From assembly GCF_022808865.1 (NCBI RefSeq), contig NZ_JAKZLB010000001.1, positions 868,001 through 932,000 on the forward strand: DNA of 64,000 bases, written 5' to 3'. Numbering within the stretch: position 1 is the first letter of the stretch; each line of letters opens with the position of its first letter. A program made the position numbers and the translations under genes. Source of the stretch: Geothrix oryzisoli (lineage in GTDB: Bacteria > Acidobacteriota > Holophagae > Holophagales > Holophagaceae). Under the pieces are notes generated by a model. It did no database searches. It was not told the origin of the DNA and worked only from the letters and a program-made list of their open reading frames with translations. This document shows, piece after piece, positions 25,631 through 55,246 of this stretch.

Positions 25631-25706
25631 GGGCCTGTAGCTCAGCTGGGAGAGCGCTGCGTTCGCAATGCAGAGGTCGTCAGTTCGATCCTGATCAGGT
25701 CCACCA
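25631..25706 (+). tRNA. tRNA-Ala(CGC)
   Basis: The 76-base gene includes the encoded CCA end. The acceptor GGGCCTG pairs with CAGGTCC and contains the G3-U70 wobble that identifies alanine tRNAs. The D-arm (GCTC...GAGC), anticodon stem CTGCG/TGCAG with loop TTCGCAA (anticodon CGC, read GCG), and the T-arm with TTCGATC are all present. The 3' 45 bases are duplicated 29.5 kb downstream, marking this gene as an integration site; the copy here remains complete and functional. Confidence 0.95.
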
Positions 25707-25707
25707 A
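25662..25707 (+). repeat. attL: left copy of the 46-bp attachment-site repeat
   Basis: From the anticodon loop (TTCGCAATG) to one base past the CCA end, this stretch is identical at all 46 positions to 55201-55246. The base before and the base after differ between the copies. This is the classic product of tyrosine-recombinase integration into a tRNA 3' end. Confidence 0.93.
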
Positions 25708-25745: not shown

Positions 25746-26629
25746 GATGTCCCAAAGTGGCTATTTTTCCCAAACACTCGAGCCTCGTCTGTACCAGTTC
25801 TGCAAAACCACCCTACAGCGCCCAGCACCACTTGGCACACCGAGACAGCGGAAATACTGGGATTCGCAGCCCTGGACAACGCTGGCGCGAAAGGGATGTC
25901 CGATCCGACAGCAGGCTCCAGCGCACCTCAAAAACATCCAGCCCCTACTCCATTACCAGCCGACCTCCTCATGTCTCCAGGGCCACCCGTCGTTGCAGGG
26001 TTGGGTCTCTGTAATCGTCTGCCCTGCGCCCTCAAGGAAGGCCACCAGGAGCCCTCATGCCCCGACTCCTGATCCGGGCATAGGGGCACCCCGGACGGAG
26101 CCCTTCCCGGCTCCGTGGGCGTTGATGACAACCATAGCGAGGCAGGAGACAAGGCATTACGACCTTGAATTGCCACGGGTCATCAGATCGTTCCGTTATG
26201 AATTCTTTACAGATTTTAACCACAATAAGTTGTTTAAAATCTGATAGCAACCACGAATGTCATAAATCGAAATTATTAAAATGTTAAATATTTTTGATTC
26301 GTTTTTTGCTTGAATTCATTGGCTATTTTTGAAGTTTGTTATTATTTATATTGACACGATATTTCATGCCTAATACAATTCAAATAGATTCGATTCTTTG
26401 AATGCATCATTGGTAGCCAGCGAAAACTAGCCAGAGGTTCCTTGACCAGAGATCCAGCAGCGAGGTTTGCGCCATCACCTAAGGCTATGTCATTTATTGA
26501 TTACATTTGTTGTCATGCCACAGGAGACAAAGATCACCTCTTAACCCAAAAATTTGGTTCATGTCAGATGTTTTGAGCCACCAAGAACAACCAGTTTCAG
26601 CGATGTCCCAACCGGAAAGGAGAATCCAA
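25746..26629. other. left-end non-coding region of the island with putative integrase arm sites
   Basis: I see no convincing gene in these 880 bases. The start, 25788-25840, carries TCTGTACCAGTTCTGCAAAACCACC and CACCACTTGGCA (split here only by spacing), which resemble the region just upstream of the integrase at 55058-55115. These are candidate arm-type binding sites. From about 26160 to 26500 the DNA becomes very AT-rich. It includes an inverted repeat AGATTTTAA...TTAAAATCT at 26211-26242, and probably the promoter of the xis-like gene. Confidence 0.5.
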
Positions 26630-26851
26630 ATGAGCCGAAGACAAACGGAGAAAGCCATACAGGAAGAGGATGTTGTGCCACTTCCGAAATTGGCCTTTTC
26701 GATTAGGCAGACGGCAAAAATCATCTCTATGGGCGTAAGTGCAGTTCGTTCCCTAATCAAAGACCGTAAAATTCTGGTTGTACGAAAAGGTCGATCCATC
26801 ATCGTTCCGTACACAGAAATTCAGGCCTTTCTTGATCGGGAGAAATGCTAA
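26630..26851 (+). CDS. excisionase-like helix-turn-helix protein
   Basis: The 73-aa product has the excisionase/MerR-like HTH_17 pattern: FSIRQTAKIISMGVSAVRSL then the wing KILVVRKGRSIIVPYTEIQAFLD. This is the layout of small Xis-type DNA-binding proteins that bend att DNA and bias integrases toward excision. Start ATG 26630 has the strong ribosome-binding site AAAGGAGA; longer in-frame starts lack one. It lies near the left att site while the integrase lies near the right one, so in the excised circle they would be close neighbours. Confidence 0.75.
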   Translation: MSRRQTEKAIQEEDVVPLPKLAFSIRQTAKIISMGVSAVRSLIKDRKILVVRKGRSIIVPYTEIQAFLDREKC

Positions 26852-27854: not shown

Positions 27855-28708
27855 TTCTGGAGCATTTCGTTCAGATACTTGGGCAGGGAATCGAGCTTCT
27901 CAGCCCGAAGGAGCGTCACGAAGTGATCGTTCTTCATCAGGTCCTTGAGCGCCGTCAGAACGAACCGAAGTTGTTGCTCACAGTGCCGGGACTTCTTCAC
28001 CAGCAGCTCCTGCTTCTGGGTTTCCTTGCGAAGGGTGCGAACCAAATCCTGCGGTGAAGGGGCCTTGGCCGATCTGCGGGAATTGGACTTCCCAAAATCT
28101 TTGCCACGAGCACGACGCTCTTCAATGAGTTTGCGCATCTTCAGGAGGGCACGCCCTCGGATCTTTCCACTGTCGTAGGCGTCCTGAAGGCTGCGCTGCA
28201 TTTCCGCGTCACCCACGGTCGCGATCTCCATGGCCGAGGTAATGGGAATTTCGCCACGCTCGACCGCAGCGACGAGCCGATCCTCACCGTTCTCAATGAG
28301 ACGAACGAGTTGCACCACGTAGCTCTCGCTGACGCCTGTGAGCGCCGCGATGGCGGACAAGCTGTGGCCACGTTCCCTTAACCCAGCCAGATCTCTCGCC
28401 AGCTCCAGGCATGATGGTGTTCGCCGGGTGAGATTCTCTACCAGGCTACATAGCAGGCGATCCTCCAGCGGGATCTCTACGATCACGGCTGGAATTTCAG
28501 TGGCGCCGCAGGCGATGAAGGCTTCTAGACGCCCCTGCCCACAGACCAGGTCGAAGCCATCGTCACCATCACAGCGGCTGACGGTGATTGGCTTCTTTAA
28601 ACCAATCTTGGCGATGTTCTCGACGATCTCTCTGAACTTACCCTTGCTGCGACCCCGAGCGTTGATCACCCGAATCTTGTCGATGGGAACAAGCTGCACC
28701 TTGGTCAT
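27851..28708 (-). CDS. ParB-like protein
   Basis: The 285-aa product has the ParB N-terminal domain: FREIVENIAKIGLKKPITVS, FDLVCGQGRLEAFIACG (the G-Q-G-R box) and LVENLTRRTPSCLELARDL. A KorB-like HTH follows (LSAIAALTGVSESYVVQLV), and then a basic C-terminal tail. It is sandwiched with four-base overlaps between the serine recombinase and the second ParB-like gene. Two different ParB paralogues without ParA next to a recombinase suggest a DNA-binding accessory role to recombination or regulation, which is inference. Confidence 0.85.
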   Translation of the reverse strand: MTKVQLVPIDKIRVINARGRSKGKFREIVENIAKIGLKKPITVSRCDGDDGFDLVCGQGRLEAFIACGATEIPAVIVEIPLEDRLLCSLVENLTRRTPSCLELARDLAGLRERGHSLSAIAALTGVSESYVVQLVRLIENGEDRLVAAVERGEIPITSAMEIATVGDAEMQRSLQDAYDSGKIRGRALLKMRKLIEERRARGKDFGKSNSRRSAKAPSPQDLVRTLRKETQKQELLVKKSRHCEQQLRFVLTALKDLMKNDHFVTLLRAEKLDSLPKYLNEMLQK

Positions 28709-30237: not shown

Positions 30238-30326
30238 GCTGCACCCCGTCTGACCAGGTGGCGGGCTTCGGCAAGCATTCCTTGGCCCTGGCAAACGACC
30301 CTATCTGCCTCCCGAATCGTTCACCA

Positions 30327-30835: not shown

Positions 30836-31681
30836 TCAGACAGTGAAGTAGAGAGCCCCCACCGCCATGGCACCATAAGCCCACTTATCCCACCATTCCC
30901 TCGGTATCTGCATCGAGATCCCATCACAGCGGTGCACAAGGATCTCACCGCTCGGGCCATAGAAATACACTTCACCGCTCTTCGGAAACCATTCTCCTGG
31001 GGCGGCCACCAGCAGTGGTGTGGTGAATCCCTCTTGGCCCCTCTCTGGGCCGGAATCGATACCAAGCGTGATGATCCATGCTGCGGCGTCGGCAGGAAGA
31101 ACTGGTCCGGTCACACTCCACAGCGAGGTTCGTTTCAGTGAATCTGGGAGCTTTCTACGATCCTTTGCGTCCTTCGTGGTTTCGGCCCATTTGTTCAGGG
31201 TCAGCCTCCAGGGCATGAGATGTGGTGGCAGGATGCATGGGGGAGGTAGGAGGACGAAGGTCTCATCATCCTCCCCTGGTGTCGGCCAGATCCCACGCCT
31301 CTGATTCACCCTCCATGTCTCTCCGACCACGGAGATGTACTTCCGATCCACACCGTCATGAATGGTGGACATGGTCCTGAACAAATCGCTCATCCCATCA
31401 ATTCCAATATCAGCAGACTCGGCTTCATCGGAATCCTTGGGTCGTGCACGATTCTGATTCCCACCCCTCAACGGAGGCTCCGTGGGAGCCGCGACCGGTT
31501 CCTCATTGATGGGTGGACTGGTCCTTTTTGGTGCATGGTCACCGGTGTGGTCGCTTGTGCAACCCTCGATTTCCACGTCCAGGTACGGGCATTCCGCGAT
31601 CTCTCGGTCCAGCGAAGGGTTTTGCCTTTTCGCGATTCGTTCGAGATCTCTCTCGCTGGTAGATGGTTTCTTGTCGCGCAT
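30836..31681 (-). CDS. uncharacterised protein downstream of the relaxase
   Basis: I do not recognise this 281-aa protein. The first ~100 residues are charged and low-complexity (MRDKKPSTSERDLERIAKRQ and a Pro/Glu-rich stretch). The rest looks folded, with LLPPPCILPPHLMPWRLTLN and a Trp-rich C-terminus (IPREWWDKWAYGAMAVGALY). ATG 31681-31679 is chosen; an upstream GTG-type start would lengthen it. Its 5' end overlaps the last 143 bases of the relaxase gene in another frame. Position in the mob operon suggests a mobilization-linked protein, without further support. Confidence 0.6.
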   Translation of the reverse strand: MRDKKPSTSERDLERIAKRQNPSLDREIAECPYLDVEIEGCTSDHTGDHAPKRTSPPINEEPVAAPTEPPLRGGNQNRARPKDSDEAESADIGIDGMSDLFRTMSTIHDGVDRKYISVVGETWRVNQRRGIWPTPGEDDETFVLLPPPCILPPHLMPWRLTLNKWAETTKDAKDRRKLPDSLKRTSLWSVTGPVLPADAAAWIITLGIDSGPERGQEGFTTPLLVAAPGEWFPKSGEVYFYGPSGEILVHRCDGISMQIPREWWDKWAYGAMAVGALYFTV

Positions 31682-32657
31682 ACGCGTCCTCCACGAGTGT
31701 GAGTAAGGCTTTCCCACGCAATCCAACTAGCATTGACGGGATATTCTGAGGACTAGACCACACCCCGACTTTTGGTGACGGGAGTGGCGGCTTCTGTTCC
31801 ACGGTTGTGCCAACGCGGCTTGCTGCAGCCATGGAGGCCGCATCTACATCACGTCTGATGTGAGGCGCGATCGAAGCCCACTGATAGTGTTCACCAAGGC
31901 TGGATGCCTTCCACTTCTGACCATGGATCGCGTATGAAACTCCGACCGTGCGACCCCCTTTGTTAAGCAGGATGTCGATTCCAGCCTTGCCGAGTCGGTC
32001 GCAGAACTCGGCGTACGACAACACCTCTCCTTCCCTAGGCCACACCTGATCGAGTGAACATCGCGCAGAATCCATGGCCGGGGTTTTACCCCGCTTCCGT
32101 ATTTCGCCTTTGGCCTTGTTGGGTTTGGGGGTATTTCTTTCGGGCCTAGGCGCTCTTGGCTTCATCGGTCGAACGCTACTCTGTAGCTGTATCGGTCCGT
32201 ACTTCGCCTCGACTTCTCTGCAAACAACCTGTGTGATCCCGCAGTCACGCATGGTGTCACGAATCAGTGATCCGTCCACGCCTACCCGACACCAGAGCGG
32301 ATGAATATGGTCATGGGGCTGGTCCAGATGGCGCAGAACCAGGAAGGTGTGGAGACTCTCGCTCAAGCCATGACGTTCTAACAGGGTGTCCGAAATATCA
32401 CCCCAGTAGGGACTGACGCGCTCAACTTCGTGTGCACTGACCGACCAGTGTCGGAAGGGAGACGCTACATCAGGGCGAAGAGCAGCAGCCATTTCAAATA
32501 CTTCAGTGATCATCCTGGCCGCTTCGGGTGTGTTAATTCGGTCTGGCAGAACACTCAGAATGTCGCCGGATGCGGACACGATTTCGACCCTACGGTTGAC
32601 AAGTAGGTAGGTGAGCGCATTCAAAATTGATCTGACCTTCAGTTTTTTCGAGATCAT
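31539..32657 (-). CDS. relaxase/mobilization nuclease
   Basis: The 372-aa product is a MobA-type relaxase that would nick oriT and lead transfer of the strand. The three-histidine metal motif is H115-x-H117-x-H119 in QPHDHIHPLWCRV. Tyr17 in ILNALTYLL is the likely catalytic Tyr. A C-terminal segment GGRTVGVSYAIHGQKWKASSLG matches the 'GISY.Y.G..f.GS.LG' block after many MobA relaxases. ATG 32657 overlaps the mobC stop by four bases. No coupling protein or type IV secretion genes are in the island, so transfer would need a helper element. Confidence 0.82.
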   Translation of the reverse strand: MISKKLKVRSILNALTYLLVNRRVEIVSASGDILSVLPDRINTPEAARMITEVFEMAAALRPDVASPFRHWSVSAHEVERVSPYWGDISDTLLERHGLSESLHTFLVLRHLDQPHDHIHPLWCRVGVDGSLIRDTMRDCGITQVVCREVEAKYGPIQLQSSVRPMKPRAPRPERNTPKPNKAKGEIRKRGKTPAMDSARCSLDQVWPREGEVLSYAEFCDRLGKAGIDILLNKGGRTVGVSYAIHGQKWKASSLGEHYQWASIAPHIRRDVDAASMAAASRVGTTVEQKPPLPSPKVGVWSSPQNIPSMLVGLRGKALLTLVEDAYARQETIYQRERSRTNREKAKPFAGPRDRGMPVPGRGNRGLHKRPHR

Positions 32658-33046
32658 TCGGGATCTCCCTTCTCTTCCACCCCTGCGAGGCTTCTCCTAA
32701 GCCATTCCGTCGCATCTGCGACAGAAGCTGCTTTCGTGCGCACACCTTCATCGAGGGAACGCTCTTTGCGAATGACCGCCAGGAACGAATGCACCACCGC
32801 AAGGTGACGCCTCACCGCGAGGATGATCGGTCTCTCCTGCAGGGGCGGCGGAATCGCCACGATGGGGGATCGCAGAACCTCAGTGATGGCACATCCATGG
32901 GCTTCCGCCATGTTACAAATGGCCTCATATTCCTCGGGGCTTACTGGTACAGAGATTCGTCGAGATCTCCGCTTTGCATCCGGTTTCCGGTGGCTCCTGG
33001 TCCGCGCCGGGATGTGTTCCAGCAGGGGATGAGGATCAGAGGACAT
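32654..33046 (-). CDS. MobC-like relaxosome accessory protein
   Basis: The 130-aa product has a basic N-terminus and a ribbon-helix-helix-like stretch, RRSRRISVPVSPEEYEAICN then EAHGCAITEVLR, which follows the MobC pattern 'R-I-x-V-x-V-[ST]-x-E-E'. It would bind oriT and help the relaxase. It is coupled to the relaxase gene by a four-base overlap and starts at ATG 33046-33044, facing a 375-base non-coding region likely to hold oriT. Confidence 0.75.
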   Translation of the reverse strand: MSSDPHPLLEHIPARTRSHRKPDAKRRSRRISVPVSPEEYEAICNMAEAHGCAITEVLRSPIVAIPPPLQERPIILAVRRHLAVVHSFLAVIRKERSLDEGVRTKAASVADATEWLRRSLAGVEEKGDPE

Positions 33047-33421
33047 TCGACACCTCCACGGGCCTGGAATGGGCGGCTCGCCCTTCATTCGTTTCCAGAT
33101 CCGGAAGCACCCCGGAGATGACCGGTAATGGCATGAGTTCCCCCCCGAGTGCGCAAGGAGCGGCCTGGTCACCGACGCAAGCCCCGGAAGGGGCGGCGGA
33201 AGTGTGAACATGGCTGCCTCGCTTGCGCATTTCGGCCTCTTAGCGTGAGTCAGTTCAATTTGGATACCTATGATGTCATATCTTTGATACAACATCAACA
33301 ATAACAATTTTACCAACTGGTGTAGTTTTAATTTACCGGCTAATTTATAGCAAATGGGCATAGTTGCAGGCTTTGACCAAAATGCATCTATCCTCTCTAT
33401 GAACAATCCATAGGAGGATCC
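33047..33421. other. non-coding region upstream of mobC, candidate oriT
   Basis: No gene is visible in these 375 bases between the divergent mobC and the small RHH gene. The mobC-proximal half contains an imperfect hairpin ATCCGG / CCGGAGAT at 33099-33119, followed by ACCGGTAATGGC at 33121-33132. A second hairpin, GCCCCGGAAGGGGC, is at 33181-33194. ACCGGTAA next to a hairpin recalls IncQ/MOB-P-like nick regions from memory, but the match is short. The distal half (33240-33400) is AT-rich and probably carries the promoter of the rightward gene. Confidence 0.35.
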
Positions 33422-33727
33422 ATGTTCGTCCCACATCCACCCGTCAGGAAGAAGGCGAATGAGACAGTTCGCCTTTCCATTCCCACTCGCCTGATGGATA
33501 CCGTCAGGGCTATGGCACAGCAGGTGAATGGAGAACCCAGCGATGTGCTTTGTCAGGCACTGGAATACGCCTTGTCAGACTCAGACGTGAGAAAGAAACG
33601 CTCCAAGAAGCCCACCGAATCTAACGATGGCAATCCAAAGGTCGTAGAATCGGGTGACCGTCCGAAGACCCCTTCCGAGGCCACCTCTCAACTGATGATG
33701 AGCCCCGCCAAGCCCACCAAGGGGTAG
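33422..33727 (+). CDS. small ribbon-helix-helix-like protein
   Basis: The 101-aa product contains KKANETVRLSIPTRLMDTVRAMAQ then PSDVLCQALEYAL (split only by a few residues). This is the strand-helix-helix pattern of CopG/MetJ-like DNA-binding proteins; a basic, Ser/Pro-rich tail follows. The ribosome-binding site TAGGAGG is excellent. Divergent from mobC across the candidate oriT region, it may regulate the mob genes or bind oriT. It could equally be an antitoxin, but no toxin gene follows. Confidence 0.6.
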   Translation: MFVPHPPVRKKANETVRLSIPTRLMDTVRAMAQQVNGEPSDVLCQALEYALSDSDVRKKRSKKPTESNDGNPKVVESGDRPKTPSEATSQLMMSPAKPTKG

Positions 33728-33956: not shown

Positions 33957-34730
33957 TCAACCCTGGAAGATCTCGTGCGCGTGAAACGCCAGAAAGCTGG
34001 GCTCCGGAACAAACCGCTCTGGGATCTGAATCCGGCATCCGTCCAGCCCAAGCAGCCAGTCTGCCGCCAGGCGGTTCCCGCGCAGGGCTCGGAGTCTCGG
34101 GGATGCCTTGATCGTGTAGTCAGGCAGGACCGTCAGCAGCCCGCGATCGTAGGCCCGATCGTGAAGTGCCGATAGACATAGACCATTCCTGGGGTTCAAA
34201 CGATTGGAAGCGTCTTGCGCCCACGGGATGATGTGACTGGCCACCAGGAATGTGGCGTCACCAAGTCCGGTCATGCAGCAGCGGCCCCGGTAACTGGATA
34301 GGACTGAGCGTCGGAAGAAAGACTGCCGAAGCCTTGCCAGAACCACTGCTTCCCGGGTTTCTCCTTCGTAGCCCATTTCGGGCTCCCCGGGTGCCACCGA
34401 GTCGGACTCTTTCCAGCCAAGGGATTGAAGCACCCGCGTGCTCTCCTCTGCCATGCCTTGCCAATCAGCGTGGAAGGCCTGCCACACCTCCCGATCCCCA
34501 TCGGAGGCATTCCCGAGGCCTTTCCGACCACTCTCCCTGATGGCCGGATCCAGGCTTGCCAGGTTCACAAGCTTCATAGCGACCGAGGAAGGGGTCCTGC
34601 CCAGGAGGGATGCCAGATCGATGATCTCCGCCGTGCCCTTGTGTAATCTCCCAAATGGCAGAAGGCAGTACAGCCGGAAGGCGGCGATCAGTTCGTCGCG
34701 TGTCCAGAGTCGCCGCCCAGCCACTGACAT
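33957..34730 (-). CDS. HNH endonuclease
   Basis: The 257-aa product has a helical N-terminal half (DELIAAFRLYCLLPFGRLHK) and a C-terminal HNH nuclease domain: CCMTGLGD, ASHIIPWAQD with the first His, NPRNGLCLSALHDRAYD with Asn and second His, and GLLTVLPDY. This subtype is common as a stand-alone restriction or homing-like endonuclease in defence islands. It starts only 10 bases after the hsdR stop, so it is in the same transcript, perhaps as an additional restriction function. Confidence 0.85.
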   Translation of the reverse strand: MSVAGRRLWTRDELIAAFRLYCLLPFGRLHKGTAEIIDLASLLGRTPSSVAMKLVNLASLDPAIRESGRKGLGNASDGDREVWQAFHADWQGMAEESTRVLQSLGWKESDSVAPGEPEMGYEGETREAVVLARLRQSFFRRSVLSSYRGRCCMTGLGDATFLVASHIIPWAQDASNRLNPRNGLCLSALHDRAYDRGLLTVLPDYTIKASPRLRALRGNRLAADWLLGLDGCRIQIPERFVPEPSFLAFHAHEIFQG

Positions 34731-34740
34731 GCAGGCTGCC

Positions 34741-37700: not shown

Positions 37701-37803
37701 TTACTGCTCCCGCCGCATGCTCTATAGGGACCGGCTGCACCATCCCTGTCATCGCCTTTACGATGATGTCTTCCAGGCCTTTCTCTGTGGTGTCGGTGCT
37801 CAT
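34741..37803 (-). CDS. hsdR: type I restriction enzyme, R (nuclease/translocase) subunit
   Basis: The 1020-aa protein translocates and cleaves unmodified DNA. The N-terminal nuclease domain shows the PD-(D/E)xK core GLPIATLELKNN. Helicase motifs follow: Walker A QHSAGSGKSNSI, DEAH box IIIDEAHSSQGGK, motif III FTATPKPKT, motif V/VI region DKFQTGYDEPLL and LSRLNRAHP. Length is standard. It lies 133 bases after the AlbA_2 gene, in the same direction as hsdM and hsdS, which supply modification and specificity. An HNH gene follows. Confidence 0.95.
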   Translation of the reverse strand: MSTDTTEKGLEDIIVKAMTGMVQPVPIEHAAGAVSPYGGTGWILGSAKDYNRDFALDLVQLRAFLEDTQPVLAKALDIANDSPTRLAFLSRLQGEITKYGIIHVLRKGISHQQHSVTLFYATPSEGNIKAQALHAMNRFSVTRQLQYSKENPNLALDLGLFINGLPIATLELKNNLTKQTVADAVEQYKQDRDPKDLLFGFKRCMVHFAVDDQEVQMCTELKGKASWFLPFNKGYNKGAGNPVNPAGLKTDYLWLQTLTPEGVTEILENYAQVVLEENKKTGKKKAKQIFPRYHQLDVVRSVLAHVSQHGAGHRYLIQHSAGSGKSNSIAWLAHQLMALRNAKGPIYESIIVITDRRVLDKQIRDTVKGFAQVDSVVGHATDSSALKGFIADGKKIIISTVQKFPFIVDEISSQHRGHAFAIIIDEAHSSQGGKTAAAMHVALSEAGKEGEEESTEDRINRFMEAKKMLPNASYFAFTATPKPKTLELFGEPFVDGGVTRYRPFHEYSMKQAIEERFILDVLQYYTPVNSFYKLKKVIEDNPLFDEKKAKKKLRHYVEGNFTAIERKAQVMIDHFLDNVVKPKLMGGQARAMVVTGGIKRAIQYFHAFNAYLQEIGCIYRPIVAFSGEHEVVDESSTSGDPTKAEKVTESKLNGFPSSDIEDRFQEEPYRWLICADKFQTGYDEPLLQTMYVDKTLEGIKAVQTLSRLNRAHPLKQNVFVLDFLNEVEGIKAAFQDYYQTTVLSQATDPNKLNDLKADLDDAHIYTQKQVQELSDLFLAGAERPRLDPILDQCRENYKSELDEDGQVKFKGDAKAFVRTYDFLCTILPYTQESWERLSIFLNFLIPKLPAPKEEDLAKGILDAINMDSYRAQKQVTQKLILENKDALIDPSTVTGGGVSPEPELKPLDEILKEWHQQWGNIDWKDKDKVEAILTKELPAMVAQDKAFQNARLNSDEQNARIEHDKALARAMTSLVNSNLEIFKLFSDNDDFKRFVTQTSFKLNYDQWSFRPKGPQPGLGA

Positions 37804-37936
37804 CCGGTCAAACTCCAGGAGAGGCGATCAAGTAGCGGTCAAGGAAGGCATGGGCTGTAAGTGATGGATCCAGTAAGGAATGGATACGGAGATTTGGGCA
37901 GATCCAGGCTAGCCGGGGCCGCCAGTCAAGTACCCA

Positions 37937-39427
37937 TCAAGTAGGGCTCTCGGGGTGAGGTTTGGCCCAGAAAGGCACGTATTTCTTCATTTTGGGTGCG
38001 GCATCCGGGTCGTGCGGACAGATGGCACCGGCCTGGATGGCTTCCTTGATCAGGCGAGAAGCCATGGCGCTGTTCTGGGGCTCAATGCCGAAGCGTCCCC
38101 GCAGGGTGGTGTTGGTCATGAAATCCCGCTCCACATAGCGAAGACAGGCGTGGAGGTAGGTGGCCCGAATCCGATCCTCTCTATCCATGTGAGTCAACGC
38201 TCGGTGGGCAAAGAGCACAGCCCGAGTGCTGTCCTCGGGAACCTCGAAGAGAGGGGCGGGAAGCTGGTTGTACTCCGTCTGAAAGACGACCTTGTCCACG
38301 CCGCTGCCCCGTTCTTCGCATACGCCTACCCGGCGCATGAAGGAGGCCAGGGCCTCGTTACGAGATTTCGGCGGGGAGTCCAGAAATCGCTCGGTCTTCA
38401 CCAGGGGCTTGCCTGGATTGGTGATCTCAAGGCGGTCCTCGAAGAGTTCCACCATGGGGCCTGCACCAGTCACCAGAAAATCCTGATGGATGAGGGCATT
38501 GGCCACCAGCTCGCGCACGGCCAGGTCGGGATACATGGGCACCGCCTTGCGGAGGGCCTTGCCCATCACCTCGTTGGGAGGCACTTGGCTGATGATGTAG
38601 GCAATGAGGCCCTCGAAACCCACAGCGTAGCCCTTGGTGCCCGGCTGCTCATGCAGTGTCTCCACACGGCTTCGGCCTTTATAGGTGACCACCCTCACGG
38701 CCTTCCGTTCGAGTCCTTTGAAGGTGCCCAGCTTCTTGGCCAGCAGGATGGCCCCAAGGTTGGTGATGCTCCACGTGCCATTGTCGGCCTTCAGGATCAT
38801 CCCGTCGTCCACCAGGGCCCTCAGGATGCCTTCCTTGGCGTCGGGCAGCGGGAGGCCCAGCAGGTCGAAGTAGGCTGGGTATTCCAGCAGCTTGAGCACA
38901 TCATCCGCCGCCAGCCCCTCCGCCGCGATGAGGCGCTCAAAGGGGGTGTGATCAAAGATGCGCCAGAGTATTTTCTCCTTCTCCGGGAATTCCTTAAGCC
39001 GCTTCTTGTAGGAACCCACCCGGATCCATTCCGCGCTCTGGAAGGCCACGGGATGGCGGAAGGCCTGCCCGATTTCCAGAAGCACCACCTGCTTTCCGCC
39101 CGTTTCGAAGCAGTGGAAGTGAAAGTCGATGCGGGGTGAAAGCAAGCGCAGGAGCCAGTTCTCCAACTCCTCGTTGCCGACCTTGGCGGTAGCCGGGTCA
39201 AAGCTCGTACCCACCAGGTCGTGGGTGCCATCTTCCACACCCCATACGAGGTATGCGAAGGCCTTGCCATGGAGGGCCGCCGCGTTGGAAAGGGCCGAAA
39301 GGTATTCTCCGGTCTCCTGCGGTTCTGCGTCGTTGACCTTGAACTCCACCCACTCCGTTTCTTTGGGGAGCTTGCGAAGTTCGTTCACGAGACTAGTAAG
39401 GTAATCCACAGCGCGAATCGTGGTCAT
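37937..39427 (-). CDS. AlbA_2/Schlafen-like ATP-binding protein in the type I RM locus
   Basis: The 496-aa product has an N-terminal AlbA_2 (divergent AAA-4/Schlafen-like) domain: ETEWVEFKVN, then EYLSALSNAAALHGKAFAYLVWGVEDGTHDLVG. Middle and C-terminal HATPase-like RecG-associated parts follow, with AVRELVANALIHQDF and FEDRLEITNPGKP, then a wing-like tail. Such genes often sit inside hsd operons, and their role there is unsettled. It overlaps hsdS by four bases and precedes hsdR. It could regulate or modulate restriction; this is inference. Confidence 0.83.
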   Translation of the reverse strand: MTTIRAVDYLTSLVNELRKLPKETEWVEFKVNDAEPQETGEYLSALSNAAALHGKAFAYLVWGVEDGTHDLVGTSFDPATAKVGNEELENWLLRLLSPRIDFHFHCFETGGKQVVLLEIGQAFRHPVAFQSAEWIRVGSYKKRLKEFPEKEKILWRIFDHTPFERLIAAEGLAADDVLKLLEYPAYFDLLGLPLPDAKEGILRALVDDGMILKADNGTWSITNLGAILLAKKLGTFKGLERKAVRVVTYKGRSRVETLHEQPGTKGYAVGFEGLIAYIISQVPPNEVMGKALRKAVPMYPDLAVRELVANALIHQDFLVTGAGPMVELFEDRLEITNPGKPLVKTERFLDSPPKSRNEALASFMRRVGVCEERGSGVDKVVFQTEYNQLPAPLFEVPEDSTRAVLFAHRALTHMDREDRIRATYLHACLRYVERDFMTNTTLRGRFGIEPQNSAMASRLIKEAIQAGAICPHDPDAAPKMKKYVPFWAKPHPESPT

Positions 39428-40827
39428 GCCTCCACCTCTTCGGCATCGGGGACTTCGGAGACATCGTCCAGGTCTTCCTCGAGTTCTTCTACGGCCTCCT
39501 CATCATCAGCCAGGACGGGAAGGTGGGCCGCCGCCTCACGGATATCCTGTTTGCCTGTCACGACATCAGCGATGAGGCGGGCCCGGAGTTCAAGAAGCAA
39601 ATCTATTTCAGATTGAATGAGTACGAATGCAGAATTAAGCGGTTTGGTGGCCTCATCGATGAAGTGTAGAATTTGTTTTTGCTCTTCAATGCAAGGAAAC
39701 CAAAACCAACACTCCCCAAGTGCATCTCGATTTATTTTTGGCATTGCCACACGAAGTGAGCAGTCGGTTGCAAATTTTGTAAATGGCTTTGAAAGCAGAA
39801 TTTGCAAAAAATACGGGGTAATAACTTCGGTTTCAACGGGCGAGATTGGATACATGTCAGCACTACATAGACAATCGCATGGTGCCATAGCCGCTTTGGC
39901 AAGATTAGGACGAATCTTGCTGTAAATAATCTGCCCTTTGCGAACCTCGTATTTCCCGCTGCTTGCTCCCTGTTCAATGGCAGTTTGCAGGTGCGAAATC
40001 ACTCCAGAGCCACTTCGAATATGGTTCGGAGCGATCAGAATCTTAACCATGTGCTGGGAATCATTGGGATCAACTTGTCCACTCGGTATTTTTGCTACGA
40101 ATTTAAACCGTTTGAGTGACCAATGTTCCGGTATGTCTCCCAAGTATTCCGTACCGGATGGTTTCAGCCGGACGTTGGAATCTAGTCCACGCGTGAGTGC
40201 TTGGTGAGTGATCACCTGCTTTTGTTCGTTGAGTAGCACGATCAGCTTCCGTTTGGCCCGAATTTGACGCTTGATCTGGCGATCCGCATAGTCGAGGAAG
40301 CGGACGATGGCGGCTTGTTCTTCCTTGGAGGGACAAAGGATAGGGATCTCCAAGAAACTTTCTGGATATAGGCGCAATCGCGAGTCGTTGACGCCTGTGG
40401 AGCGACATCGGTATTCCGCTGCATAACTCTGGGTGCGCAGGAGGTGATCCAAATATTTGGACTCGAAGGAATCAGGGGTCTTCAAGCGGTATACACCATA
40501 GGCTGGGCTCACGATTCCGATCTGGCGTGAGACACCCAATGCCGCCATCCAAGCCCACATGGTGTTGATGACCAGATCCCCGGCTCGGCAGAGCTTGTGG
40601 CCCACGTATGACTCCGCCATGAACATGGTGATGTTCTTCTGGCTGCGAGGCGTCACGCCGGTCTTATGGGACACGGAGAGCAGTTCCTCCTGTCCCGATT
40701 GGGATCGTTCGTCCACTTCTCGGAAGAAATACTTGGCGCGTTTGGTGGTCCATCCCTGTGGGATCTCTCCAAGCCACGGCAGGCCTGAGGCTTGATAGGC
40801 CGGATACGGCTTGAGATCCTGGATCAC
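39424..40827 (-). CDS. hsdS: type I restriction enzyme, S (specificity) subunit
   Basis: The 467-aa protein has two target recognition domains, each preceded by a WLGEIPQGW or YLGDIPEHW motif (residues about 14-25 and about 225-240), and central and distal conserved helices (EEQAAIVRFLDYADRQIKRQ and IEEQKQILHFIDEATKPLN). It sets the DNA sequence recognised by both HsdM and HsdR. The second TRD (about 39650-40100) is clearly more AT-rich than the first and than neighbouring genes, suggesting domain replacement. An acidic tail of about 35 residues ends the protein. Confidence 0.93.
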   Translation of the reverse strand: MIQDLKPYPAYQASGLPWLGEIPQGWTTKRAKYFFREVDERSQSGQEELLSVSHKTGVTPRSQKNITMFMAESYVGHKLCRAGDLVINTMWAWMAALGVSRQIGIVSPAYGVYRLKTPDSFESKYLDHLLRTQSYAAEYRCRSTGVNDSRLRLYPESFLEIPILCPSKEEQAAIVRFLDYADRQIKRQIRAKRKLIVLLNEQKQVITHQALTRGLDSNVRLKPSGTEYLGDIPEHWSLKRFKFVAKIPSGQVDPNDSQHMVKILIAPNHIRSGSGVISHLQTAIEQGASSGKYEVRKGQIIYSKIRPNLAKAAMAPCDCLCSADMYPISPVETEVITPYFLQILLSKPFTKFATDCSLRVAMPKINRDALGECWFWFPCIEEQKQILHFIDEATKPLNSAFVLIQSEIDLLLELRARLIADVVTGKQDIREAAAHLPVLADDEEAVEELEEDLDDVSEVPDAEEVEA

Positions 40828-42680
40828 GCCCCAACCTCCTGGGCGATTCGGGCGGGATCCCAGATTCGCTCCGCGAGTTGGTGGTAGAGCTTGTGGCGCG
40901 CCTCCAGGTCCGCCTTCTTGAACGTGTCGTGGGGCTTGAAGGGCAGTCCGCTTCGCTGTACGAACTGGAGGAATCCGGGATTGTTCTGGTAGCAGGTTGG
41001 GTGCAGGGAGCGGGCCAGCAGGTTCTGGCCGTGGTAGTGGCTCAGTTTCTCGGTGTAGGGCTTGTCGCCATAACTGGCATTCACCTTCTTGTGCAGCAGG
41101 AGCAGACCGCCCATGAGGTTGCGGGCCGCCGCGAACTCCGCCGCTGTGGGGAACTCGTCCTGGTGCTGCTCGGGGTGGTTGGACCAGATGTGCTCGATCT
41201 CGAAGCGCGCCTTACCCCCAGCAAAGAAGGCCGACAGGGAGTGGCTCTTGAGGTCAGACTCTTCCTCCAGGAACACAGTCATGCGGGCCAGCAAGGTTTT
41301 GATGTAGCCCTTGGACCAGTGGTTGAGTCTGAAATCCGAGAAACCGGCACGGCTGCCATCCTCTGTGCCGTTGAGATCAAGCTTCTGGTCGGCCAGCTTC
41401 GCCAGAAGGAACTGGGAGAGCCCGGCCAGGTCCTTGCCACGCAGCTCCTTGATGACCAGGAACATGGCGTAGGAAAGGGCGGCGAAGTTCATGGAGAGGT
41501 AGTTCACGGCGCGCCGGGCCAGGAGGATGTCGAGGAAGGTCGCCACCATGCGGATTTTGCGCCGCGCAGTGTCTTCACTGTCCTGGGGGTTCAGGGCCGC
41601 GAGGATCACCGGGTACTGGAGGGTGAACCGGAAGCAGGCTACGTGATACACGGGCTCCAGTCCCTCTACGGGTTTCAGGGAAGCCTCCCGCAGGTGCAGG
41701 TAGTGGCGGGTGTAGAAGGGCATTTCCTGGTGAACGAATCGGAAGAAGTCGTCGCTCTCCTTGAGGCCGAGGGCCTCCTCGTGGTTCTTGACCCAGCGGT
41801 GGAACTCCGTCCCGATGCGTTCGAAATCTTGGTTTTCAGACCCCTTCTTTCTCTCGCGCACAGACTGGGCGTACCTGGCCCTCAGCCACGCCTTCACAGC
41901 ATCGGAGTCTTCTTCCTTACCCAGCTTGCGAAGGGCTTCCATCTGCTTCTTCCACGTCTGAGCCGCGAGCGCCCGTTTCTGGCTATCCGTGATGCTGGCG
42001 AGCAGGTAGCCCTTAAGCATGTCCAGGGGTGTGAGGGAGAGGCCCCGATCGTTCATGGTCTCGAAGATGGTGTAGGCATCTTCGTCCGTGGTGGCGCTGA
42101 TGGCCACGAGGTGTACGTTCTCGATCAGCCAGTCGCAGAAATAGGGCAGCGCGTGATCGTCGATTTCCTCGGGGAAGAGCCCTTCCAGATCCTGGTAGCG
42201 GTTAAGTAGGTTCTCCACGCTCTCGGAGGCATCCACCGTGTCATGGGCCTGGCCCTTGAACAGGGCTTCCATGACAGCATCTCGCTCTGGGACGGAGATG
42301 TTGAACTTCTTCTTGCCGTATTTCTCGGCATAGATGAGGTCTTCGAGCTTGACCCGGTCTTCCCGGTTGCCCTGGTGAAGGTGGAGGTGGACGAGGATGA
42401 GGGTCAGGGTGGTGAGCCGCTGCTGGCCATCCACGATGAAGGTCCCGCCATCCTTTTGGCTGAGGATGATGGAGCCCAGGAAGTAATGCCCGTATTCCTG
42501 GACCCGATCACGCTCGTCGGATACGTCATAGTCCTGAAGGAACTGGGCCGCCAAGTCGTCCACCAGCTCCTCGACCTGCTTCTTCTGCCACCGGTATTCC
42601 CGCTGGTAATAGTCCACGGAATAGCGCTGGCCCTGGAGGATCTCGCGGATGGAATGGGCTTTGCCGTCGATTTGCTTCAT
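40824..42680 (-). CDS. DUF262/DUF1524 protein, GmrSD-like
   Basis: The 618-aa product begins with a DUF262 (ParB-like, GmrS-type) domain whose DGQQR box is at residues 84-88 (TFIVDGQQRLTT). It ends with a DUF1524 HNH-type domain (ARFEIEHIWSNHPEQHQDEF, ARNLMGGLLLLHKKVNASYG). This is the single-chain form of the GmrSD type IV restriction family, which in known cases cleaves modified DNA using NTP. It sits between hsdM and hsdS with four-base overlaps on both sides. It may broaden restriction to phages whose DNA modification defeats the type I enzyme. Confidence 0.88.
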   Translation of the reverse strand: MKQIDGKAHSIREILQGQRYSVDYYQREYRWQKKQVEELVDDLAAQFLQDYDVSDERDRVQEYGHYFLGSIILSQKDGGTFIVDGQQRLTTLTLILVHLHLHQGNREDRVKLEDLIYAEKYGKKKFNISVPERDAVMEALFKGQAHDTVDASESVENLLNRYQDLEGLFPEEIDDHALPYFCDWLIENVHLVAISATTDEDAYTIFETMNDRGLSLTPLDMLKGYLLASITDSQKRALAAQTWKKQMEALRKLGKEEDSDAVKAWLRARYAQSVRERKKGSENQDFERIGTEFHRWVKNHEEALGLKESDDFFRFVHQEMPFYTRHYLHLREASLKPVEGLEPVYHVACFRFTLQYPVILAALNPQDSEDTARRKIRMVATFLDILLARRAVNYLSMNFAALSYAMFLVIKELRGKDLAGLSQFLLAKLADQKLDLNGTEDGSRAGFSDFRLNHWSKGYIKTLLARMTVFLEEESDLKSHSLSAFFAGGKARFEIEHIWSNHPEQHQDEFPTAAEFAAARNLMGGLLLLHKKVNASYGDKPYTEKLSHYHGQNLLARSLHPTCYQNNPGFLQFVQRSGLPFKPHDTFKKADLEARHKLYHQLAERIWDPARIAQEVGA

Positions 42681-44812
42681 TGCACCGGCCCTCCGATGAT
42701 CGCGGCCAGCATGCCTTCCGTCTCTTTTTCCAGGGCCAGGATGTCAGCGCGGATCTCGTCCAGGCTCCGCATGGGCTGGGGTTTGTAAAAGTAACGATTG
42801 AAGCTGATCTCGTAGCCGATCTTGGTCACATCCGCGTCCACCCAGGCATCACTGGCATGGGGGAGGACTTCCCGCTGAGTGAAGGCCGCGATGCCGCCCT
42901 CCTCCAAGAGGGGAATCTGCTCGGTATCGCGAAGCTCCGAGTCCGGCTCGTATTCAACGATGCTGGCCTTCCCGTTCAGGCTGATCGGGTAGCGACCGTA
43001 GAGCGGATCGGCCACAGCCTTTCCGGCCTTGTGGATCTTTTTGATCACGGGGGCGGCCTGCTCATCGCGCCGGGCAAGGCTGCCGCTGAGCAACTTCTCT
43101 CGCTTGGCCGTGAACTTCACGCCACCCGTCTCGCCCAGGGTCTCCACCAGAGCACGGAATTCATTGAAGTCGTTGAAGGAGGTTTCACCTAGCCTGGCTG
43201 CGAGTTGATCCAGAAGATTGGCAAAGGGTTCTTCCTTGGCCTCCTTGCAGGTAAGCCGGAAGCGACGCAGGCTTCCTTCGTTCAGGTCCACGGACAGTCG
43301 CAGTGGCCGTTCAACGGTCACCTTCCAATATCCGAAGGCTTCGTTGGGAAAGAGCTTGGATTGCTCTGTTTCCTTGAAGGACAGGAATGTATCGCAGATG
43401 CGCTGGATATCCTCGCCTGAAAGCTCGCAGTTCTTCTTTCCCAGGTTCTTGCGAAGGGGCTTTGACCAGGTGGTGGCATCGATGAGTTGGACCTTCCCTT
43501 TCCGATGCACAGGCTTCCGGTTGGTGAGCACCCAGATGTAGGTGGCGATCCCGGTGTTGTAGAACATGTTCAAGGGCAGAGCCACGATGGCTTCGAGCCA
43601 GTCATTTTCGAGGATCCAGCGCCGGATGTTGCTTTCGCCCTGCCCTGCATCGCCCGTGAACAGGCTCGATCCGTTGTGGACCTGGGCGATGCGGCTGCCC
43701 AGCTTGGAATCCTCCTTCATCTTGGCAAGCTTGTTGGCCAGGAAGAGCATCTGGCCATCGCTGGATCGGGTCAGGAGCTTGTAGTCCGATTCGCCCGCGT
43801 GTTGGATGATGAAGCGGGGATCGCTGATCTCCCCCTTCCCTCCCATGCGCTCCATATCCGTCTTCCAGCTCTTCCCATAGGGTGGGTTGGAGAGCATGAA
43901 GTCGAACTTGCGGGTGAGGAAGCCATCCTGGGACAGGGTGGAGCCATAGGCGAAGTGGTCTGCCTCGGTGCCTTCCCCCTTGATGATCAGGTCGGCCTTG
44001 GCGATGGCATAGGTTTCGGGCTGGACCTCCTGTCCATATAGGTGGACGGCCACTTCCTTCTGGTGGTCCAGGGCCAAGGCCTTCAGGCGCTCTTCTGCGA
44101 CCGTCAGCATGCCTCCCGTCCCGCAGGCCCCGTCATAGAGCAGGTAGGTGCCCGATTCAATCTGGTCGGCGATGGGCTTGAAGATCAGGTCGGCCATGAG
44201 GGTGACCACATCGCGGGGCGTGAAGTGTTCCCCGGCCTCCTCGTTGTTCTCTTCGTTAAACCTGCGTATCAGCTCCTCGAAGACTGTGCCCATGGCGTGG
44301 TTGTCGAGGGCGGGCAGCTTCTCCGATCCATCCTTGTTCAAGACCGGATTCGGGGAGAGATTTACGGTGCTGCTGAGGAACTTCTCGATCATCGTGCCGA
44401 GGATGTTGGCGTCCACCAGGGTCGAGATCTGGTTCCTGAACTTGAATTTCTCAAGGATCTCCTGAACATTGCTTGAAAACCCATCCAGGTAGGCCTCGAA
44501 GTCGGCCTTGAGTTGCTGCTGCGAGCTTCGGGCCTTGAGGTCCTTGAGGCCCCATTTGAAGGTGTTATAGAAGTCCTGGCCAGCAGCCGTCCGCAGGGCA
44601 GCGTCCTGGTTGACGATCTTGGCCTTGTCCAGGTTCTCCTTCATGTCCAGGACGGCCTGACGAGTGGGTTCCAGGAGGGCATCCAGTCGCCGGATCACGG
44701 TCATGGGAAGAATCACGTCCCTGTACTTGCCCCGAACATACACGTCCCGTAGGACATCATCCGCGATGCCCCAGATAAAATTCGAGATCCAAGATAGCTG
44801 CGCCTGATCCAT
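42677..44812 (-). CDS. hsdM: type I restriction-modification DNA methyltransferase, M subunit
   Basis: N6-adenine methyltransferase. The 711-aa product has the helical N-terminal HsdM_N domain (about 1-160), AdoMet motif I LLYDGACGTGGM, and motif IV LSNPPYGKSW (NPPY, catalytic). A C-terminal half of about 250 extra residues makes it longer than EcoKI HsdM (about 530 aa), as in other variants with extended C-termini. ATG 44812-44810 (MDQAQLSWISNF) is chosen at the start of homology. It leads the coupled leftward set hsdM, DUF262, hsdS, AlbA_2. Confidence 0.93.
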   Translation of the reverse strand: MDQAQLSWISNFIWGIADDVLRDVYVRGKYRDVILPMTVIRRLDALLEPTRQAVLDMKENLDKAKIVNQDAALRTAAGQDFYNTFKWGLKDLKARSSQQQLKADFEAYLDGFSSNVQEILEKFKFRNQISTLVDANILGTMIEKFLSSTVNLSPNPVLNKDGSEKLPALDNHAMGTVFEELIRRFNEENNEEAGEHFTPRDVVTLMADLIFKPIADQIESGTYLLYDGACGTGGMLTVAEERLKALALDHQKEVAVHLYGQEVQPETYAIAKADLIIKGEGTEADHFAYGSTLSQDGFLTRKFDFMLSNPPYGKSWKTDMERMGGKGEISDPRFIIQHAGESDYKLLTRSSDGQMLFLANKLAKMKEDSKLGSRIAQVHNGSSLFTGDAGQGESNIRRWILENDWLEAIVALPLNMFYNTGIATYIWVLTNRKPVHRKGKVQLIDATTWSKPLRKNLGKKNCELSGEDIQRICDTFLSFKETEQSKLFPNEAFGYWKVTVERPLRLSVDLNEGSLRRFRLTCKEAKEEPFANLLDQLAARLGETSFNDFNEFRALVETLGETGGVKFTAKREKLLSGSLARRDEQAAPVIKKIHKAGKAVADPLYGRYPISLNGKASIVEYEPDSELRDTEQIPLLEEGGIAAFTQREVLPHASDAWVDADVTKIGYEISFNRYFYKPQPMRSLDEIRADILALEKETEGMLAAIIGGPVQ

Positions 44813-45406
44813 GTGGTTATCTTCGCACGGGGTTAGACAGAGTAAAGCCGAAGGGTGCCAACGAAACCAGGCCCCTAGCCCAGCATAGCCAGCGCCAATG
44901 GACAAGATTTGTCAGTTGATCCTCAACCTGAGGCTATCGGCCCGCTGATCTGCCCGCGTCTTCTGGTGCCTCAGCTTCGACCCGCCCCGCCAACAACGCT
45001 TCCCAACGGTCACCCGGCTGACGCCGCGAACCTCTAGCTCCCTCCTTCACCAATGATTCTGCCATTACGAGGCCTTGCCCCCCCCCTCTGCTGGGTGTTC
45101 GGCCTTGAACCCTCTCGCAGTTCAAACCGGGGAGGTGTTCTCCCCGATTTTTCACCCACTGCTGGTATGTCCCGGTCCATCGCCCCCTCGCAACTCGGGG
45201 GGCGGTGGGACGGGGCCGATGCGCGAAGCGCCGCCATCAGGCTTTTCCCCTCGACCTCCACGCCCTCCCACGGATTCGAGGGCAAGAAGGCCAGCAGGCC
45301 CTTGCCGTGCCAGGAGATGTCCCTGGCGCGGTTCTTGTCCTCGGAGGCCGCTCCACACGGTCGATGTGCTCCTCCCCCAGAGGAGCCAGGAAATCCGCTG
45401 GCCGCC
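44813..45406. other. region between hsdM and the S24-like regulator; no confident gene
   Basis: These 594 bases separate two leftward genes. Open frames exist on both strands but none combines a start, a ribosome-binding site and a recognisable domain. A minus-strand frame around 45080-45360 reads plausible residues (GKGLLAFLPSNPWEGVEVEG) and could be the remnant of a small gene. The hsdM promoter should lie in 44813-45000; I cannot pick it out. Confidence 0.4.
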
Positions 45407-53381: not shown

Positions 53382-55034
53382 CTACTCCTGGCTCTGAAGC
53401 CCCCGAATCCCCAAGACCGGGGATTGGGAGCGAATAGCCATACGATTTGCCTTCTCGCAGAGGTGTCCATAGTGCTCTTGGACCATCCGTGTGTCCGCGT
53501 GCCCCAACTGCTTGGCGACCACCATTGGCAGAATGCCGCCATTCAATAAACCAGACGCATATGTGTGCCTGAGTTCATGAAACGTAAGTTTCTCGATCTT
53601 GGCCTTCGTGTATGCCGCCTTCATTGGCGCCTTGGCATCACCCTTAATCCATTTGAATTTCGGCTTGGCTGTATCAGACTCATTTCCGATTTCGGAGATG
53701 GCAATCTCAGAGGCCGGACAGGTGAGTCTTGCCGCCTCAAGTTGCCTGGCTATTGGGGAGACACCAACCGCTAGTAGTTTTCGCCGCAGTTGGTCCAGGG
53801 TGTTGGACACTCGTTTCCGGGCATTGCCAGCAGTTGGCCAGAGCTCCGCCTCGATCTCCGAATAGGTCACCCACCGCCCTGCCCCACCCATCAACATGGC
53901 GAGCACATCCAACTCGCTGCGGGACAGCCGGATCTGAGCACCCCGGAAGGTCACCAACCTCGGCGCATCGACTTTGCGGGCCACTAGATGTCGAGGAAAT
54001 AGAGTGTCTGAATTTTTCCTGCCGGCCACCAACTCCTTGAAGAATTCTTCGCCCTCTTCAGTCAGAAAAATGTACCGAGGACGAGAATCCACACCCTTGC
54101 CATTCACCCACAGGGAGCCGACTTCCGGGTTGAAGTCACCTACTTTGGCTTCGGTCAATTCGCCGTACCGTGCACCGGTATAAAGTCCACCTTGCACAAG
54201 TTTCCGGAATTCTGGCGTACAGGCGGCAACCAGTGCTTGCTGTTCATCCACAGTCAGGAATCGCACCCGTTGCCCCTTCACTCCAGGGAATGGTTTCACT
54301 CGATCCCAGGGCCGGTGGTTAGCGGGAATCATGCCATCATCCACCGCCAAATTGAGCGCGGCCTTTAACGTGGCGAGTTCCCTATTGGCGGAGGACTTCC
54401 TTGCCCTGATGGCTTTCTTGTGGGCATCCGGTTCCTTTTTGGGGTCGGGAAGGTCCAAATATTCGATCTCTTCGCCAGGTAACCGCTTCCGTCCTGTTCT
54501 GCGCTTCCCTCGTGCTGCCAGGTCGCGATGCCATTTCTTGAGTCGAGTAGTCGTCAACTTTGCAACATAGGTTTCGCCCAATATGGGGAGAATATTTGCA
54601 TTGGCTGAGGCTTCGGAATCGTCGGCAGTCAGCGGATCCTTCCGGGTCGCCCTGGCCTCGCTGATGTAATAGGAAATGACATCACGGACTTTCCAGTCCC
54701 CGGAAGGAAGCGGTTCCCCATCAACTTTCAGATTTTGCTCGCGGGCACATCGCCCGAACCAATCCTCCGCCTTTTTTTTAGCCTGATCCCAACTAAAGAC
54801 AGTGACACCGTCTGCCGCCCTGGTGTCGTCAGCCTCGCCAATTTTGGAGTTGAGGAAGGACGTGGAATCTGGAACCCGCCAACGGGCCGAGAAGGTACCT
54901 GCCTGGTCATCCTTCGGGTGCCTGTAGATCACGTAGCAACCGTCGCCCAAGGTGGCCGTGTGATATTTGGCGCGTTCAAGAGCCAGCCTCTTCGTTTTGG
55001 TGTCTAGCCGAGCCGATCTGCTCGTCTGTGCCAT
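53382..55034 (-). CDS. int: tyrosine recombinase (integrase) with inserted winged-helix segment
   Basis: The 550-aa product is the element's integrase. An N-terminal arm-binding part (about 1-110) and a core-binding part (about 115-245) precede the catalytic domain, with R289 (TGARYGEL), H486-x-x-R489 (FHELRHTYASG), H512 (LGHAD) and nucleophile Y522 (EHYGHL). Between R289 and H486 lies an unusual insertion, about 357-445 (FRGAQIRLSRSELDVLAML, WVTYSEIEAELWP, TLDQLRRKL), that reads like an OmpR/PhoB-type winged helix. The start at ATG 55034-55032 has GGAG eight bases upstream; ATG 55040 is two codons earlier. The start is 167 bases from attR. Confidence 0.9.
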   Translation of the reverse strand: MAQTSRSARLDTKTKRLALERAKYHTATLGDGCYVIYRHPKDDQAGTFSARWRVPDSTSFLNSKIGEADDTRAADGVTVFSWDQAKKKAEDWFGRCAREQNLKVDGEPLPSGDWKVRDVISYYISEARATRKDPLTADDSEASANANILPILGETYVAKLTTTRLKKWHRDLAARGKRRTGRKRLPGEEIEYLDLPDPKKEPDAHKKAIRARKSSANRELATLKAALNLAVDDGMIPANHRPWDRVKPFPGVKGQRVRFLTVDEQQALVAACTPEFRKLVQGGLYTGARYGELTEAKVGDFNPEVGSLWVNGKGVDSRPRYIFLTEEGEEFFKELVAGRKNSDTLFPRHLVARKVDAPRLVTFRGAQIRLSRSELDVLAMLMGGAGRWVTYSEIEAELWPTAGNARKRVSNTLDQLRRKLLAVGVSPIARQLEAARLTCPASEIAISEIGNESDTAKPKFKWIKGDAKAPMKAAYTKAKIEKLTFHELRHTYASGLLNGGILPMVVAKQLGHADTRMVQEHYGHLCEKANRMAIRSQSPVLGIRGLQSQE

Positions 55035-55057
55035 GGCCATTGCTCCACCAAGGAGCC

Positions 55058-55111
55058 TACCACATCTGTACCACGTCTGCAAAACTACACTCGCTACCCG
55101 GTACCACCTGG
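55058..55111. repeat. candidate integrase arm-type sites, TACCACRTCTG tandem repeat
   Basis: TACCACATCTG (55058-55068) and TACCACGTCTG (55069-55079) are back to back. TACCACCTGG (55102-55111) is a partial third copy. A related block sits at the other end of the island (25792-25840). This arrangement, just upstream of int and inside the att site, fits arm-type binding sites, which may also autoregulate int. Confidence 0.6.
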
Positions 55112-55200
55112 CAACGCGTATTGCGTTCAAAATCTATTTCTATTGGTCTTATTTATTTTCTAATGCCTTGCAAGTGTTGTTATCTGACTTAACTATCTCA

Positions 55201-55246
55201 TTCGCAATGCAGAGGTCGTCAGTTCGATCCTGATCAGGTCCACCAA
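55201..55246 (+). repeat. attR: right copy of the 46-bp attachment-site repeat
   Basis: Identical to 25662-25707, this carries only the 3' part of tRNA-Ala (anticodon loop to CCA end). It is not a functional tRNA because the acceptor 5' strand and D-arm are missing. It is the right junction of the island. Confidence 0.93.

Follow-up and report, generated by a model that had tools for sequence, protein, structure and literature searches.

An OmpR/PhoB-type helix-turn-helix domain predicted inside the catalytic domain of a lambda-Int-type integrase from Geothrix oryzisoli

Introduction

Tyrosine recombinases usually bear their extra DNA-binding domain at the N terminus. Insertions elsewhere have been described: in the integron integrases, a natural catalytic-domain insertion of about 20 residues, I2, accommodates extrahelical bases (PMC4792948, in the part of the paper available), and a survey of tyrosine recombinases reports short insertions in catalytic domains, with an HTH domain unmentioned in the available portion of its text (PMC8138268). 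When zinc fingers were put in Cre at position 278/279, recombination became dependent on their binding, according to the accessible sections of that report (PMC11631766). Recombination directionality factors (RDFs) of the RdfS type, which have a wHTH fold, are described in the excerpted text of PMC11963761 as acting on the att DNA of tyrosine recombinases. In the literature searched, we found no natural tyrosine recombinase with an OmpR-type domain in its catalytic domain.

Here, we analyzed a 64-kb stretch of Geothrix oryzisoli DNA (the window) that encodes a lambda-Int-type tyrosine recombinase of 550 amino acids (P0001). The enzyme shares the core-binding and catalytic fold and the catalytic residues with recombinases of the lambda-Int/Tn916 type (AB + CB + CAT), and arm-type repeats and a tRNA 3' target are common to both; P0001 differs in the 99-residue OmpR-type insertion in its catalytic domain. 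As in the integron integrases (IntI), this natural insertion lies between Arg I and HxxR, but the extra segment of IntI4 aligns before the LF strand equivalent, whereas the insert of P0001 follows the LF strand. By this position, and by TIGR02249 (27.3 bits, with an NCBIfam cut-off of 265), P0001 does not qualify as an integron integrase.

As far as the available description goes, the closest analogue is the engineered zinc-finger Cre, in which a whole DNA-binding domain is likewise placed inside the catalytic domain, but which is man-made and has its insertion at 278/279. We take that site to be in a different loop from that of P0001, closer to HxxR. The insert resembles RdfS-type factors in its predicted wHTH-type fold; those factors are separate small proteins, whereas the insert is in cis and of the OmpR type.

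Results

Domain layout and catalytic residues of the integrase

The preliminary description, made from the sequence, had placed the integrase gene correctly at 53382-55034 and gave no strand; the gene is on the minus strand (Table 1). Its start codon is backed by relatives that open with similar MARTKRS-type sequences. Full-length P0001 matched Phage_integrase in Pfam (1.1e-18), and no NCBIfam model scored above its own cut-off. Structural comparison with VIA-align matched P0001 to lambda Int C75 (1z19; Z 18.2, 3.4 Å over 265 residues) and to Tn1549 Int (6en2; Z 17.8, 3.5 Å over 274 residues); the top Z score, 19.9, was obtained with XerA, but at 14.9 Å. Full-length lambda Int (1z1b) matched from residue 4, overall only at 10.9 Å (VIA), and the AlphaFold2 model has strands within residues 24-68 and a helix at 82-105 in the N-terminal region.

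Table 1. Features of the integrase gene and of the island that carries it (coordinates of the window)
Feature	Coordinates	Strand	Evidence
tRNA-Ala (CGC), integration target	25631..25706	+	Rfam RF00005
att repeat inside tRNA gene	25662..25707	+	46/46 direct repeat
Left-arm 23/27 match to 55065-55091	25788..25814	+	1/200 dinucleotide shuffles reaches its score
Excisionase-like HTH protein, candidate RDF	26507..26851	+	HTH_17 3e-5 (under curated cut-off), phrog_66 excisionase 1.1e-4
MobA/VirD2-type relaxase	31542..32657	-	PF03432 1.5e-13
NikA-like mobilization protein	32657..33436	-	PF21983 2e-4, weak, under curated cut-off
Tyrosine recombinase/integrase P0001, 550 aa	53382..55034	-	Pfam, AlphaFold2, VIA-align
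Catalytic domain part two, residues 457-546 (W462, H486, R489, H512, Y522)	53397..53666	-	AlphaFold2, alignment
Inserted segment, residues 358-456	53667..53963	-	Insert states vs family profile
OmpR/PhoB-type HTH core, residues 366-424	53763..53939	-	PF00486 match
Catalytic domain part one, residues 257-357 (R289, candidate K313)	53964..54266	-	AlphaFold2, VIA-align
Core-binding domain, residues about 112-256	54267..54701	-	VIA matches 2kd1, 3nrw, 2khv
Presumed arm-binding domain, residues 1-105	54720..55034	-	N-terminal strands + helix; function inferred
Two tandem 11-bp arm-type repeats (55058-55068, 55069-55079)	55058..55079	+	Repeat search; upstream of integrase
att repeat beside integrase gene	55201..55246	+	46/46 direct repeat

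R289, H486, R489, H512, and Y522 are all retained, giving the R...HxxR...H...Y set in a tyrosine recombinase fold. The HxxR histidine is H486, within the FHELRH motif that starts at residue 485; it was found in P0001 as previously described, as were R289 and the three motifs quoted then (from residues 370, 391, and 412). The catalytic lysine is less straightforward. V315 sits in a MAFFT column that is lysine in 92/92 relatives, and K313 lies two residues ahead of it in the same beta hairpin. The K-to-R stretch measures 4 residues in 74 of 93 rows, including P0001 (K313 to R318; to R320 it is 6), 5-7 residues in 14 rows, and 2 in one, and is unmatched in four. Because K313 is nearby and relatives differ in the length of this hairpin, the mismatch may reflect gap placement, and from the alignment we infer that K313 is the catalytic lysine. 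Since the catalytic residues and the fold are retained and the att copy outside the tRNA is undecayed, the enzyme is probably active.

An in-frame insertion between the first catalytic arginine and HxxR

Against a profile built from 17 of the 19 genus relatives aligned, without P0001, residues 358-456 (99 aa, in frame) fall wholly in insert states, between R289 and H486. An earlier range of 357-445 had the position right but ended slightly short on the C-terminal side. To the genus relatives were added the best 80 of 238 loci from genome contigs and 18 from viral contigs, giving an alignment of 118 rows (106 distinct over the last 250 residues). R289 and H486 are 198 residues apart in P0001, compared with 86-115 residues in all 112 other rows with both anchors, and for these 112 the earlier statement that tyrosine recombinases have no second DNA-binding domain at this place holds. 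Five rows are without an anchor: two identical sequences have proline at the arginine column (spacing 100), two are truncated, and one is a distant match with tyrosine at the histidine column.

The flanks of the insertion are intact, with no integrase residue lost, and W462 is common to 92/92 relatives. The loop tolerates insertion, since the relative L102 carries 16 additional residues where P0001 has its insert.

The insert resembles OmpR/PhoB-type DNA-binding domains

Residues 366-424 matched PF00486 (Trans_reg_C) with 26.7 bits in the full protein, just over the curated cut-off of 26.2, and the isolated segment scored 31.4 bits (2e-7). A phmmer search against PDB matched the same residues to response regulators (3q9v, E 7.6e-5), and in NCBIfam the segment matched the PhoB, RppA, RpaB, and CreB regulator models, all far under cut-off.

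The AlphaFold2 model of the whole protein, computed from P0001 and 92 relatives, has a mean pLDDT of 86, with blocks of ten residues in the catalytic domain averaging 83-98 (261-350) and 87-97 (461-540). Between these confidently modeled parts, the insert forms a separate hairpin (359-363/366-370) and helices (372-382, 391-398, 404-422, and 426-434), which ruled out that it is part of the normal catalytic fold and agrees with the separate segment proposed earlier. Confidence in the insert is modest (blocks of 43-75 over 351-460; 434-456 below 50), as expected from an alignment whose depth there is essentially one sequence. A separate model of the segment (residues 352-460), made with two further wHTH sequences, reached a mean pLDDT of 62.6, with blocks of 62-81 over segment residues 11-70 and a tail below 50.

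All 50 PDB matches listed by Foldseek for the isolated-segment model (of 189 at E<=10) are OmpR/PhoB/ToxR-type domains or proteins that carry them. The best match had an E value of 0.011, with 64 columns at 1.6 Å, and none reached E<=0.001. VIA-align superposed the segment on the ArlR DNA-binding domain with Z 11.1 (4.0 Å, 89 residues). With the OmpR/PhoB family (PF00486), the insert shares the N-terminal hairpin, three helices, and motifs of the LxRxE...LL and LRRKL type; it differs in being enzyme-embedded and in having no receiver domain. The recognition-helix region is basic (R406, K407, R408, R417, R418, K419), and residues 358-424 carry a net charge of +5 (11 K/R, 6 D/E).

The aligned response regulators end in a GxGY wing motif. 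The insert has RQLEAARLTCPASEIAISEIG there, in which the motif is unrecognizable at the aligned position, and the tail is modeled at pLDDT below 50. The other data support the conclusion that the insert is an OmpR/PhoB-type helix-turn-helix domain. The proposed likeness to an OmpR/PhoB-type winged helix is thus borne out by the PF00486 score and the fold matches, but not by the wing motif.

The integrase gene lies at one end of a mobile island

A perfect direct repeat of 46/46 bp is present in the 3' half of tRNA-Ala(CGC) and beside the integrase gene. The 29.5 kb between the two copies have a GC content of 56.5%, compared with 69% outside. The identity of the repeats argues for recent integration by P0001 or a very similar enzyme. 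Judged from its genes, the island is probably mobilizable, and it looks like an integrative mobilizable element with the integrase and a candidate RDF at opposite ends.

The island also encodes a CI-like HTH protein. A large serine recombinase at 28705-30294, with a homing-endonuclease-associated repeat match below cut-off, is adjoined on the same strand by two RepB/ParB-type genes, a second recombination system on the island. Type I restriction genes occupy 33957-44905; interspersed with the subunits are genes for an HNH protein, a Schlafen-AlbA_2 protein, and a GmrSD homologue. Between 47722 and 53315 are genes for a metallo-beta-lactamase (MBL)-like protein, an E2-ThiF-JAB fusion, a patatin-like phospholipase, and a second MBL-like protein, a set that is possibly a defense operon.

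Insert-less relatives sit beside the same att repeat

A query made of the joined flanks of the island matched at the tRNA side in 47/47 genus genomes. In 12 of them, a listed match continues beyond the tRNA and crosses the junction by 23-34 bases, entering a terminator-like hairpin. Among the matches listed, none connects the tRNA with the protein-coding right flank; an empty site is therefore supported only up to the tRNA terminator.

Four of the 19 genus loci (L003, L005, L011, and L012; the last two do not differ in the final 250 residues of their integrases) carry the att 46-mer, at 45-46/46, beside an insert-less integrase. It lies 146-180 bp from the integrase start in these loci and 166 bp here, and the best match in a shuffle control of 20 loci was 26/46. 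The stretches examined at the other 15 loci contain no copy. Insert-less relatives thus sit at the same 46-bp att, which makes it unlikely that the insert chooses the target; for choosing tRNA-Ala, it is dispensable. Copies of the tRNA-Ala(CGC) 3' half stand beside integrases in several genus genomes, and within the genus this gene seems to be a hotspot of integration. More widely, three tRNA genes were found in 92 loci of relatives.

Arm-type repeats flank the core and are the predicted, and expected, sites of the N-terminal domain. In a survey of the 170 bp upstream of integrases (55035-55204 in the window), a pair of 11-mers of at least 10/11 identity at a spacing of 11 was present in 47 of 90 sequences, including the window; these sequences are related and thus not 90 independent cases. 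Pairs at each spacing from 12 to 30 occurred in 0-2 of the 90, and shuffled sequences (one per sequence) gave 0/90 at spacing 11 and at most 1/90 at any other. Such 11-bp direct repeats in tandem, with a period of about one helical turn, are a hallmark of this integrase family. The repeat sequence varies between the members printed, and on this evidence the specificity of the arms seems to change rapidly. A candidate site for the insert could be the 9-bp pair at 55137/55157 (20 bp apart).

Origin and distribution of the insert

The GC content of the insert is 0.60, compared with 0.55 for the remainder of the integrase gene and 0.69 for the chromosome, and its codon use is inside the range of the gene's other 99-codon windows. 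On these grounds, we argue against a very recent transfer of the insert from the chromosome. A recent copy from a host regulator is out by the same GC difference and by the own genome, in which the insert matched only itself at E 0.001 and 0.01. The 64-kb window likewise contains no match except the insert itself.

The preliminary description had called for a search for integrases with the same insertion. Among the matches listed, no insert-bearing integrase was found in 47 genus genomes, in 77 family genomes (with the insert alone as query), in 396 phylum genomes, or in the classes of two relatives, L103 (Thiocapsa marina, 369 genomes) and L115 (Azospirillum brasilense, 385 genomes), with at most 6 or 7 candidates scored per genome in the phylum and two class scans. 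In phages, 22 records matched P0001 and none covered 80% of the query; the 20 listed span only residue 446 or 456 to 534. Twelve plasmid records matched, none covering 80% (the best 76%, in two pieces), and a single-protein search of genome and viral contigs with P0001 returned no relatives.

Six suspicious places and 20 more insert-only places were read. G945 and G812 were dropped as response regulators (KdpE-like by reading), G1193, G419, and G344 (open frames of 485-639 residues) as response regulators without an integrase match, and G1003 as a broken integrase without the insert. None of the 20 further regions matched the integrase profile at E<=10, so that 25 of the 26 places are non-integrases by profile and one is the broken integrase. 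Where only the insert matched and the frame had the usual size of a response regulator (about 220-310 residues), the matches were read in part, and divergent insert-bearing integrases could have been missed by these searches. P0001 is therefore a singleton in the collections sampled.

Discussion

We propose that the lambda-Int-type recombinase has the 3' half of tRNA-Ala(CGC) as its target and integrates the mobilizable island of 29.5 kb there. An OmpR/PhoB-type HTH domain has entered a catalytic-domain loop with the integrase residues kept, and in the model the catalytic domain still folds around it; the insert would then be a tethered third module of the DNA-binding type. This domain may dock beside the core, on flanking DNA, or at the att/promoter region of the integrase itself; docking would alter the ease of complex assembly (synapsis) or the direction of recombination and leave target choice unaffected. 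Judging by the structures of Cre and lambda Int, we presume that the insertion loop is near the DNA-facing helix before HxxR, so that DNA on either side of the core could be within reach of a tethered domain.

A working integrase with a tethered module that may modulate assembly or direction is the explanation that we tentatively prefer, at somewhat less than an even chance. It is consistent with the PF00486 score over the cut-off, the predicted OmpR-type fold, and a catalytic fold modeled on both sides. The sequence adds the retained catalytic residues, the identical att copies and arm-type repeats on both sides, and, in the insert, gene-like codon use and a basic recognition-helix region. 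The Cre-type recombinases with inserted zinc fingers offer an engineered precedent by analogy, to the extent of the text available. Against a tethered module stand the unrecognizable wing motif, the modest model confidence, and the lack of a recognizable binding site for the insert; with no second homologue, there is no evidence of selection on it. A separate excisionase-like gene is already on the island, and insert-less relatives share the target. In a stricter version, which strikes us as distinctly improbable, the active site would become competent only once the insert has docked on a cognate sequence.

Several of these observations would also suit a neutral passenger, a domain in a tolerant surface loop with little or no function in an integrase that works like its relatives. 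The insert is a singleton in the collections sampled, its enzyme has the same att target as insert-less relatives, the wing motif is unrecognizable, and the extra residues of L102 point to a tolerant loop; yet the HTH core motifs remain recognizable (31.4 bits) and the open frame has gene-like codon use, as if maintained, and we consider a passenger unlikely, though it is the main rival. Alternatively, the insert could act through a protein partner (a response regulator, RNA polymerase, or an element repressor) or by binding the integrase promoter. A host signal would then control the expression or activity of the integrase, and the insert would make no extra att contact. OmpR-type domains often dimerize and contact RNA polymerase, and a CI-like HTH protein is encoded on the island. 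Such a regulatory sensor is nevertheless improbable in our estimation: the integrase is without a receiver domain, no candidate partner was identified, and within the window the insert matches only itself. Least of all do we expect that the insertion inactivated the integrase and stranded the island. Insertion of Zif268 in the engineered Brec1 abolished activity at the normal site, in the available portion of that work (PMC11631766), and V315 stands where the relatives have lysine; but K313 is two residues away in a hairpin of variable length, where gap placement may explain the mismatch, the remaining catalytic residues are present, and both att copies have the identical sequence, which together make a dead enzyme very unlikely.

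Placed within the catalytic domain, a regulator-type domain reveals where the recombinase fold tolerates insertion. If recombination were gated by DNA, the island would recombine only with the extra site present or free, and its integrase would parallel, in nature, the Cre gated by zinc fingers. P0001 may provide a natural template for building recombinases that depend on a second DNA sequence for their activity, and the insert-less relatives at the same target allow a direct comparison with and without the insert on the same att sites.
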